Shown here piece by piece: positions 15,954 through 59,200 of a DNA stretch of 64,000 nucleotides; within the stretch, counting starts at the first letter, position 1, and each line of letters opens with the position of its first letter. Made by a program: the position numbers and the translations under genes. Location of the stretch: assembly GCF_000143535.2 (NCBI RefSeq), contig NC_037316.1, positions 868,001 to 932,000 of the forward strand, read 5' to 3'. The DNA comes from Botrytis cinerea B05.10 (lineage: Eukaryota; Ascomycota; Leotiomycetes; Helotiales; Sclerotiniaceae). The notes beneath the pieces were generated by a model. That model made no database searches. It was not told the origin of the DNA and worked only from the letters and a program-made list of their open reading frames with translations.

Positions 15954-15956
15954 AAA

Positions 15957-16109
15957 AAAATTGGTAGCTTCTCTTTGATTGAGCGTGTCATCCTTAGTGC
16001 AGGGGCCATGCTAATCTTCTCTGTATCGTTTCAAATTGACCACTATTGAAATTGTTAGTTTGGATGTTGATTGCGAAAGAATCGGTAAATACTTACAATG
16101 CCCGAAGGC
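15957..16109 (-). ncRNA. U6 spliceosomal snRNA, interrupted by an intron
   Basis: On the minus strand, exon 2 (16042 to about 15957) carries the most conserved U6 sequence: GGTCAATTTGAAACGATACA, the ACAGAGA box leading into AGAAGATTAGCATGG, CCCCTGCAC and AAGGATGACACGC. It ends in a seven-T Pol III terminator (15960-15954). The 5' end of U6, a short GCC-UUCG-GGC hairpin followed by ATT, lies 54 nt further upstream at 16109-16097. Between them is a sequence with a perfect GTAAGTAT donor, a CTAAC branch site and an AATAG acceptor. Joined, hairpin-ATT meets TGGTCAA exactly as in fission yeast U6 (UUCG hairpin, then UUUGGUCAA). A TATA box lies about 30 bases upstream of the 5' end. U6 forms the spliceosome's catalytic centre with U2. 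The internal stem-loop appears to have one extra T (GCACT rather than GCAC before AAGG). Confidence 0.93.
16043..16096 (-). other. Spliceosomal-type intron within the U6 snRNA gene
   Basis: The 54-nt insertion begins GTAAGTATTT, contains CTAAC 14-18 nt before its 3' end and finishes TTTCAATAG. Length and signals match the protein-gene introns of this window. It lies just after the 5' hairpin, outside the ACAGAGA and internal stem-loop. A weak B-box-like stretch (TTTCGCAATC) is in its middle. Confidence 0.85.
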
Positions 16110-56289: not shown

Positions 56290-59200
56290 TTATACGACTT
56301 GACTATACCCACTACCAAGCCTACTCCTACTCCTTGATTTCCACCATTTTCTTGCTTCATCCGCCCAGAATACAGAACTTGTTAAGATAACCAAGCCAAC
56401 AAGATCTGTAAGTGCCAGAGCTTCTGTTTGAAATACTTCCTGAAGCCAGGGGAAGTATATGACTAGTATTTGACCACCAAGACTCAACGATACTGCCCAA
56501 TTGAATAGCTTATTTGAAAACAGCCCAACCTCACCTCTGAGGACAGACTTTGATTCGGAACGACAGTTCAACGCATTGAACATATCGAAAAGAACAAAGC
56601 AGGTAAAGGTCATGGTTGTATCCCTCTTACTGACTTTGCCATCTGAAAGCATTTCGTGAGTATAAACTGCCATGGTACCTAGCATGATGATGGTAGCGGA
56701 CGTAAGGACTCGAGTTATCAATGCTCTTGTAAGTACAGGGGCATTTCTCTTTCGGGGTGGTCGATTCATGACATCTGGATCCACTGGCTCCACGCCTAAT
56801 GATTGAGCTGGGGGTCCATCCATGATGATGTCTAGAAAATCTGTTAGTACGAATATGTGAGACAATACAGAAAATTGACTTACTAATCCAGAGGATCTGC
56901 ATTGCATTTAAGGGATTCTTGAATCCCAAACACGTGCAAACTAAAACCAAGCTAAGTGCCGCAGCACTTGTGCTAAGTTGAAATGTGAGGAAGTTTTGAA
57001 TATTGCTGAAAATTCCTTTCCCCTCTTCGATTGCTTTGAGAATAGTTGAAAAGTCGTCATCAGTCAATATCATATCTGCAGCTTCTTTGGCAACATCTGT
57101 TCCTTGCAAACCCATAGATATGCCAATATCAGCCTTCTTGAGGGCAGGTGCATCATTGACACCATCACCCGTCATTGCGACAATATCACCACGAGCTTGT
57201 AGGGCTCTGATAATTTTCATCTTATGATCTGGACTGGTTCTGGCGAATACGGAAGTATTGGCTATGGCGGCTTGTAGCTCACCATCGGTCATCTCATCTA
57301 TCTCATCACCTCGTAAGACTGGTCTAACTTCTACGGAGTTTACTGAATGAGCACGTGGTTCTGCAATAGGCATACCGAGTTTCTTGGCAATAGCGAGGGC
57401 AGTTGTTTCGGCATCTCCAGTAATCATAATCACCTTAACACCACCCCGCATGAGTCGTCGAATCGATTTCGAAACACCTGTTCGTGGAGGATCACTCATC
57501 CCAACCAATCCAGCAAATGTGAGACCGTTATAGACGTCTTCGTTGTGAGATACATGGTGTTCTAATTTCGAGACTGGCGTTGCACTTCGGCTTGTTGGAA
57601 CCAATGATTTTGCGTGCCTGGCAACTGGGCCACTAGCGAAACCAAGAACTCTAAGTCCTTTAGAGGCAAGCTTTTCGGCAGCTTGTAAAGCTTGTTGTCT
57701 CTTCTCCGCATCCAAATGAACTTCGCGACCGTCTTTTGTAAGGTATGTATCGCACCTTTCTAAAACTCGCTCGATAGCTCCTTTAATATAAGCATGCTCC
57801 TTTGGACTTGATGTACCTTCCGGGCCCAAATCTCCAATGGTAACACCCATCCATTTTCTTTCAGAACTGAATGGAGTTTCTCCAATACGATGTCCCAGAC
57901 CTTCACGGACATCGTGCTCTCTAAATCGATCGAGCATATCAAGCATCGCAACATCAGTCGGTTGACCGACCCACCTGCTTTTTAAGACTTGACCTGAAGC
58001 ACGGCCCTGAGTAGAGGATAAAATAGCGACCGAGGATGCTGACGGAGCATGAAGATGAGTAAGACGCGCGTTATTAGCTATATTTCCAATGCGAAGGATA
58101 CGAAGAGCCACAGTATCGGCTTTGGATTCTACCGTCTCGTCATCCGAATCAACATCCAATGGAGCATCTGCATCGAAATACCACATTTTGACAGTAGTCA
58201 TATGGTTCATGGTGAGGGTACCTGGAGAAGAATCAGTATTTCGAACAAGCTATGTGATATATCAAGCATACCTGTTTTATCACTACAAACAACGTTTACC
58301 GATCCCAGAGTTTCCACGCTCGGCATTTTTCGTACTATAGCATTGTGTCGTGCCATTCGATGTACGCCAAGAGCCAGGGTGACTGTAACAATAATTGGTA
58401 AACCTTCAGGGATAGCTGCAACGGCTAAGGATATCGAAATTGTGAATATATCCAACCATGCTTTTCCTTGAAGCCATCCAACTAAAGAGATTACCGCAAT
58501 AATAACAAAAGAAGCTTGACTTAAGTGGTTCCCTAAATCGTCCATTGAAAGCTGTAGGGGAGTCCTAGGGCTTTCCGTTTCCGATACACTTGCAGCAATT
58601 GTTCCAAAATGGGTATTTCCACCTGTCGCATAGACAATACCTTGACCATGCCCAGATCTTACAAGTGTTCCCATGAAAGCAATATTGGTCGTGCTATTTA
58701 ATGAGATATCCGCACCTACAGTTCCGCTGGCAGGAGATGCATAATCAGAGGGTGTAGGTGGTTCTAGTGAGCTAGATCCGGGTCTAAAATCGGCATGTCT
58801 AGCTTCCGCAGTGATTCGGACAGGTTCATTTTCTCCAGTCAAATTGGATTCATCAATTGTCAAGTCTGAAGCTTTTGTGACTCGAATATCGGCTGGTATA
58901 CGATCTCCAGTAGTAAATAAAACGAGATCTCCAGGAACCAATTTCGATGCCATCGTTTTTTGTGACACAGCTTCTGCCATACTAGAATCCGCATCAGATC
59001 CAGAACCTGCCATCAATGCTTCCGCCTCTGGACGATCTCGGACGCTAGGGGGCCATGCAGGTGTTCTAGGTGTTGTAGTTCTCATTTCTCCTCGTATTAT
59101 ATGCGCATGATTGGGGACCAGATGATTTAATGCCTCGATCGACTTTTCAGAACGATACTCTTGTACAAATCCTACCGTGACCACAATTGTAACTGCAACG

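Follow-up and report, generated by a model that had tools for sequence, protein, structure and literature searches.

The U6 locus and its insert

The DNA analysed in this study is a window of 64,000 nucleotides (C7:868001-932000) in a genome of 42,630,066 bases distributed over 18 contigs, and the locus of interest within it is a U6 snRNA gene encoded on the minus strand. A scan of the 64-kb window against Rfam returned U6 as the sole family above its cut-off, with the RF00026 model matching positions 16059-15956 at 81.8 bits (E 3.1e-19, cut-off 44). The match covers the core of the RNA, including ACAGAGA, AGC and internal stem-loop sequences that agree with the Rfam consensus, although its 5' stem is built from intron sequence and the true 5' hairpin, with a predicted folding energy of -3.8 kcal/mol, is left out. 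Pol III U6 genes driven by a TATA box typically have that box near -30 and a T-run terminator, and both are present at this locus, where the 5' end of the RNA is predicted from the sequence to lie at 16109. The second exon opens at 16042 with TGGTCAATTTGAAACGATACAGAG, and after the insert the minus strand reads TGGTCAATTTGAAACGATACAGAGAAGATTAGCATGGCCCCTGCACTAAGGATGAC. The coordinates of these features, together with those of the related loci elsewhere in the genome, are collected in Table 1.

Table 1. Features of the U6 locus (positions in the window) and of related snRNA loci (contig coordinates)
Feature	Position	Strand	Basis and remarks
TATA box TATATAA	16133..16139	minus	script mapping; starts 30 nt 5' of U6 exon 1
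U6 exon 1, GCCTTCGGGCATT, 13 nt (GCC-UUCG-GGC hairpin + AUU)	16097..16109	minus	sequence and script mapping
54-nt insert, predicted intron; donor GTAAGTAT, branch motif ACTAAC, acceptor TAG (AATAG)	16043..16096	minus	sequence, pattern scan and script mapping
Branch motif CTAAC; expected branch A at 16055, 12 nt from intron end	16054..16058	minus	counted by eye
U6 exon 2: UGGUCAAUUUGAAAC, ACAGAGA box, U4-pairing region, internal stem-loop sequence, 3' domain	15961..16042	minus	Rfam RF00026 and mapping
Seven-T run, presumed Pol III terminator	15954..15960	minus	read by eye
U6-like stretch (L003 304-406)	C16:1103203-1103305	minus	40.4 bits, below cut-off 44
Best-scoring U2 match (L009)	C14:1593156-1593345	plus	137.9 bits; starts inside intron
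77-nt predicted U2 intron, GTAAGT…GCTAAC…TATAG (L009 1441-1517)	C14:1593096-1593172	plus	between …TTAGCTCTCTTTGCCTATTG and GCTTAGATCAAGTGTAGTATCTG
Diverged intronless U2 paralogue (L010 1494-1700)	C3:1543265-1543457 (Rfam match)	plus	73.6 bits, cut-off 46
U3 gene with 80-nt intron after first 12 nt (L014)	C11:1445230-1445493	minus	delimited by other U3 copy

Several observations point to the 54-nt insert as a spliceosomal intron. When the exons are joined by removal of exactly 54 nt a normal U6 is obtained, and pairwise alignment to the Rfam U6 consensus scored 107 for the spliced form versus 86 for the unspliced form (this and the other alignment scores and base-pair energies given below are each a single computation without shuffled controls). 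Eight nucleotides of the donor GTAAGTAT can base-pair with the 5' end of the U1 match at L006, which itself scores below the Rfam cut-off. In addition, the branch motif and its 12-nt distance from the intron end agree with the fungal values given in a passage of PMC5832005, namely a branch consensus of RCTRAY with the branch A placed 6-36 nt from the intron end. The strict donor-branch-acceptor pattern GTAAGT-N20-50-CTAAC-N3-20-TAG has two matches in the window, with both strands scanned, versus 0.09 expected, a count of at least two being reached in 2 of 100 shuffles, and one of these matches is the U6 insert. The other, at 56832-56883 (minus strand), is presumably an mRNA intron. Counted against the insert are the very short first exon (13 nt) and its last base, which is U rather than G. 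By its sequence anatomy the insert is a canonical U2-type intron, and its removal from the RNA is predicted. The original prediction, that a U6 gene is split here by a spliceosomal-type intron directly after its 5' hairpin, was borne out, and the coordinates, the 54-nt length and the donor, branch and acceptor motifs that it gave were found to be correct from the sequence and by script mapping.

Copy number and partner snRNAs

A search of the 42.6-Mb genome for the U6 family, in which 47 of 3381 candidates were scored, produced two matches, only one of which, the window locus, exceeded the Rfam cut-off. When the joined U6 sequence was used as a DNA query against the genome, nothing but exon 2 of that locus was returned and no spliced retrocopy was found. 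The check that had been proposed for a second, intronless U6 gene thus detected no intact copy elsewhere in the genome by either the family search or the DNA search. The lower-scoring family match, on C16, is interrupted by a GATT insertion that separates ACAGAGA from the stem-loop, and it has CGC in place of the AGC of U6, no TATAWA motif within 90 nt upstream of its core, and a first TTTT that falls ~18 nt past the position of the U6 T-run (counted by eye). On these grounds we considered this stretch to be degenerate and rejected it as a second U6 gene. Outside this genome, exact U6 or U2 core patterns had no locus in viral_contigs and one locus in genome_contigs (L015 2289-2312, U6 core). 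The contig carrying L015 is filed under a Verrucomicrobiaceae MAG and is probably a eukaryotic contaminant.

A single U4 match was found in the genome, and its sequence bears on the identity of its partner. At the positions where the Rfam consensuses have CUUUGCG (U4) and CGCAAG (U6), the U4 match reads CUUAGUG and the window U6 CACUAAG; as CACUAAGG of U6 and CUUAGUG of U4 depart from their consensuses in matching ways, the two fit each other. The stem II duplex formed with this U4 was computed at -22.0 kcal/mol for the window U6 versus -18.1 kcal/mol for the C16 stretch, while the corresponding dimer folds gave -37.2 for an 80-nt piece of the window U6 and -46.5 for a 110-nt piece of the C16 stretch, a comparison that the unequal lengths make unfair. 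As the C16 stretch pairs with U4 on paper, a weak function for it is possible. For the window U6, the predicted dimer folds keep stem II with both the spliced and the unspliced RNA, whereas stem I (8 pairs) forms with spliced U6 and is absent with unspliced U6.

The U6 gene is not the only snRNA gene of this genome with an insert. The best-scoring U2 gene, on C14, carries 77 nt with the canonical motifs listed in Table 1, and joining its exons allows stem-loop I to fold as GCC-UAUU-GGC, which places the intron inside that stem-loop. An intronless U2 paralogue on C3 provides a reference: it aligned to the 5' part of the C14 gene with a score of 65 for the spliced form versus 52 for the unspliced form, and the distance from TATA box to core, which is 71 nt in the paralogue, is 141 nt in the C14 gene with the insert and 64 nt once the 77 nt are subtracted. 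The paralogue itself has a TATA box, is intact in its branch-recognition sequence and can pair in helix II, and it could be a functional variant. Helix II pairing with the 3' domain of U6 was computed at -16.0 kcal/mol for spliced U2, -8.2 kcal/mol with the 3' end of the intron in place and -18.7 kcal/mol for the paralogue; however, the U2 precursor also carries exon 1, which was left out of this computation, and a need for splicing therefore does not follow from these energies. Removal of the intron would return the U2 5' end, which provides the helix II pairing with U6, to a position next to the core. Judged by its motifs, the best-scoring U2 gene is split by a canonical intron of the same class as that predicted in U6.

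Of the other snRNAs, U5 has one match in the genome, and U1 has three (L006, L007 and L008), none of which reaches the Rfam cut-off of 69.5 and the 5' ends of which read AUACUUACCU. Two of the U1 matches are equal at 65.5 bits and differ in upstream sequence and in TATA spacing (53 and 39 nt), and the third is diverged (48.5 bits). The split U6 and U2 genes still match their Rfam models end to end, and a full-length Rfam match is therefore no sign that an intron is absent. The spacing between TATAWA and the 5' end is 39 to 53 nt for U4 and for all three U1 matches, similar to the 54 nt of the U2 paralogue and the 47 nt (to GCTCTC) of spliced U2, and thus no intron is apparent in U1 or U4. U6atac and U12 had no match in the genome, and no control genome was matched in these searches either. 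Beyond the spliceosomal RNAs, one of the two U3 genes is split and the other (L013) has no intron, a count equal to that given for B. cinerea in a passage of PMC5832005, which reports an intron in one of two U3 genes for this species and also for Sclerotinia sclerotiorum.

Proposed processing of a U6 precursor and alternative explanations

The explanation that best accommodates these observations overall, and to which we assign a probability of about 0.9, is that the window carries one intact-looking U6 gene, the Pol III precursor of which contains the whole core and has its intron spliced out. That the locus is a U6 snRNA gene is plain from the Rfam match and from the elements surrounding it; its transcription and splicing, as well as any partial activity of its precursor, are what we infer. 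Pol III would start at ~16109 and produce a pre-U6 of ~155 nt ending in the T-run, from which the major spliceosome would excise 54 nt; the 13-nt hairpin exon and the core would thereby be joined in a mature U6 of ~100 nt. From UGGUCAAUUUG onward the U6 sequence is uninterrupted in the precursor, and as exon 2 holds the U4-pairing sequence, the ACAGAGA box and the sequence of the internal stem-loop, pre-U6 may retain partial function. At least partial pairing of pre-U6 with U4 is probable, and the loss of stem I in the predicted fold of unspliced U6 suggests a precursor that is perhaps partly, not fully, competent. Intron removal would then be a maturation step of the 5' end more than a precondition for the core. 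A passage of PMC10484740 reports that in fission yeast Lsm2-8 binds intron-containing U6, which indicates that a U6 precursor is able to enter an RNP. The original prediction had seen a circular dependency in an intron that must be removed by the machine to which its RNA belongs. Of that claim, the part that stands is that a U6 gene carries a spliceosomal intron, and the dependency itself is weakened by the uninterrupted core sequences of exon 2; the self-dependency of U6 would be real but, judging by the arrangement of its parts, perhaps softer than in fission yeast.

Three other explanations of the locus were weighed against this one. The insert might be retained, such that mature U6 includes it or starts inside it and its GT-AG appearance is a remnant; in the Rfam model a weak 5' stem can indeed be formed by intron sequence, and the U6 core is intact without splicing. 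We nevertheless regard retention as highly improbable: TATATAA starts 30 nt before exon 1, whereas the start that Rfam places at 16059 is 80 nt away from it; the insert has intact donor, branch and acceptor motifs; and the fit to the Rfam consensus is better for exon 1 with its junction than for the unspliced form. Hardly any more credence can be given to a silent window gene with another U6 gene supplying the cell. The only candidate for such a supplier is the C16 stretch, which scores below the cut-off (40.4 bits against 44) and could pair with U4 on paper, but it has the defects described above, including the GATT insertion, CGC, the missing TATAWA and the late TTTT, whereas the window gene has a promoter, a terminator and a full core. 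A further possibility is that the insert serves transcription. The U6 intron of fission yeast carries a box B, and in B. cinerea a box A-like sequence (7 to 8 of 11 positions) is found around the insertion site, yet the intron contains nothing above chance that resembles a box B: the best core match on either strand is 7 of 9, a value of at least 7/9 also being reached by 1696 of 2000 base shuffles of the intron scanned on the sense strand, and matching to the box B consensus gave at best 6 of 11 positions. The scan of the intron for a box B thus lends no support to a promoter role, which we consider very unlikely. The flanks, compared with GGTTCGANTCC without a control, gave a best match of 9/11 (plus strand from 15784) and six matches at 8/11, one of which, on the plus strand from 15856, lies around TCGA.

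With the predicted spliced U6 gene as the preferred reading, there are two further proposals as to how the intron arose and what it entails. One is reverse splicing, by which an excised intron was inserted into U6 RNA and then fixed by reverse transcription and recombination. Such an origin has been suggested for the fission yeast U6 intron (in a passage of PMC10484740), and U6 and U2 both reside in the spliceosome, where reverse splicing would be expected. Against it, no similar intron was found elsewhere in the genome, as searches for a second copy of the U6 intron (skipping common words) and of the U2 intron each returned the query locus alone, though introns diverge fast; the U6, U2 and U3 sites are near the 5' end and outside the catalytic centre; and U3 has an intron yet is a non-spliceosomal RNA. 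We therefore view reverse splicing as possible but doubtful. The second proposal concerns the position of the introns. These lie 13 nt from the predicted 5' end in U6, ~20 nt in U2 (the start of which is uncertain) and 12 nt in U3, and all are in or beside the 5'-most stem-loop, a pattern of three cases that was noticed post hoc. In fungal U3 genes generally, 133 of 138 introns are in the 5' half and almost exclusively in the 5'-most stem-loop, according to a passage of PMC5832005. This arrangement suggests that introns in small structured RNAs may persist mainly where the core stays whole, and the intron sites seen here, near the 5' end and with the U6 core whole, turn this into a testable statement on intron survival in structured RNAs. 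A broader version is that U6, from its single gene, and the main U2, which together make up the catalytic core of the spliceosome, are both products of that machine and share with U3 a common rule by which introns persist only near the 5' end, that their supply would be self-reinforcing, and that the intronless TATA-bearing U2 paralogue would be a possible backup able to restart the loop. We consider this version unlikely as a whole. If true, less spliceosome would lead to less mature U2 and U6, and genes for U6 and U2 that need their own product to mature would give an essential machine a natural feedback loop.

Relationship to known snRNA introns

The U6 intron of fission yeast was reportedly described by Tani and Ohshima in 1989, and fungal U6 introns are said to have been surveyed by Canzler, Stadler and Hertel in 2016 (RNA Biol 13:119), whose title has them inserted multiple times. 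The latter survey reportedly covered 147 fungal genomes and found canonical motifs. According to a passage of PMC5832005, the survey in that paper also included 147 fungal genomes, B. cinerea among them, and as the two surveys have the same number of genomes, the U6 gene analysed here may be in the set of Canzler et al. There is probably no difference in kind between the surveyed introns and the one in the window, which represent the same phenomenon. Other filamentous ascomycetes provide further examples in papers on CRISPR, as passages of PMC9518982 refer to a 'U6 snRNA promoter with 1st intron' in Trichoderma reesei and those of PMC6908651 to two U6 genes in Colletotrichum sansevieriae, one of which 'contains extra regions'. 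Unlike the genome studied here, C. sansevieriae thus also has a U6 copy without extra regions. This type of U6 intron is already known in fungi, as the original prediction had stated and as is supported by the title of Canzler et al. (2016) and by the passage on T. reesei (PMC9518982). A U6 intron in B. cinerea was not reported among the literature matches listed, and the available passages of PMC5569088 and PMC10581693 contain none on U6 introns. The matter has a practical side, since a passage of PMC12804166 mentions the use of the B. cinerea U6 promoter in vectors: if a 'U6 promoter' for this fungus were taken from the DNA preceding the recognisable U6 core, both the intron and exon 1 would be part of it.

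The fission yeast gene resembles that in the window in having a short mRNA-type intron in U6. It differs in the site of insertion, which in fission yeast is near catalytic nucleotides (in a passage of PMC10484740) and here is 13 nt from the predicted 5' end with the core left whole, in agreement with the earlier claim that the two sites are unlike. Fungal U3 introns are likewise spliceosomal and lie almost exclusively in the 5'-most stem-loop, but U3 acts outside the spliceosome and its introns therefore entail no self-dependency. For U2, titles and abstract openings among the matches listed, whose coverage excludes most subscription journals, announced no intron in this fungal group. Takahashi et al. 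reportedly found in 1993 an mRNA-type intron in the U2 gene of Rhodotorula hasegawae, near the conserved branch-recognition region. That species is a basidiomycete, and its intron near the branch-recognition region differs in location from the one predicted here in stem-loop I. A U2 intron may be less familiar than one in U6, and the intron predicted in U2 of this genome, together with the 5' position shared by these introns, may be what extends beyond the U6 introns already known.
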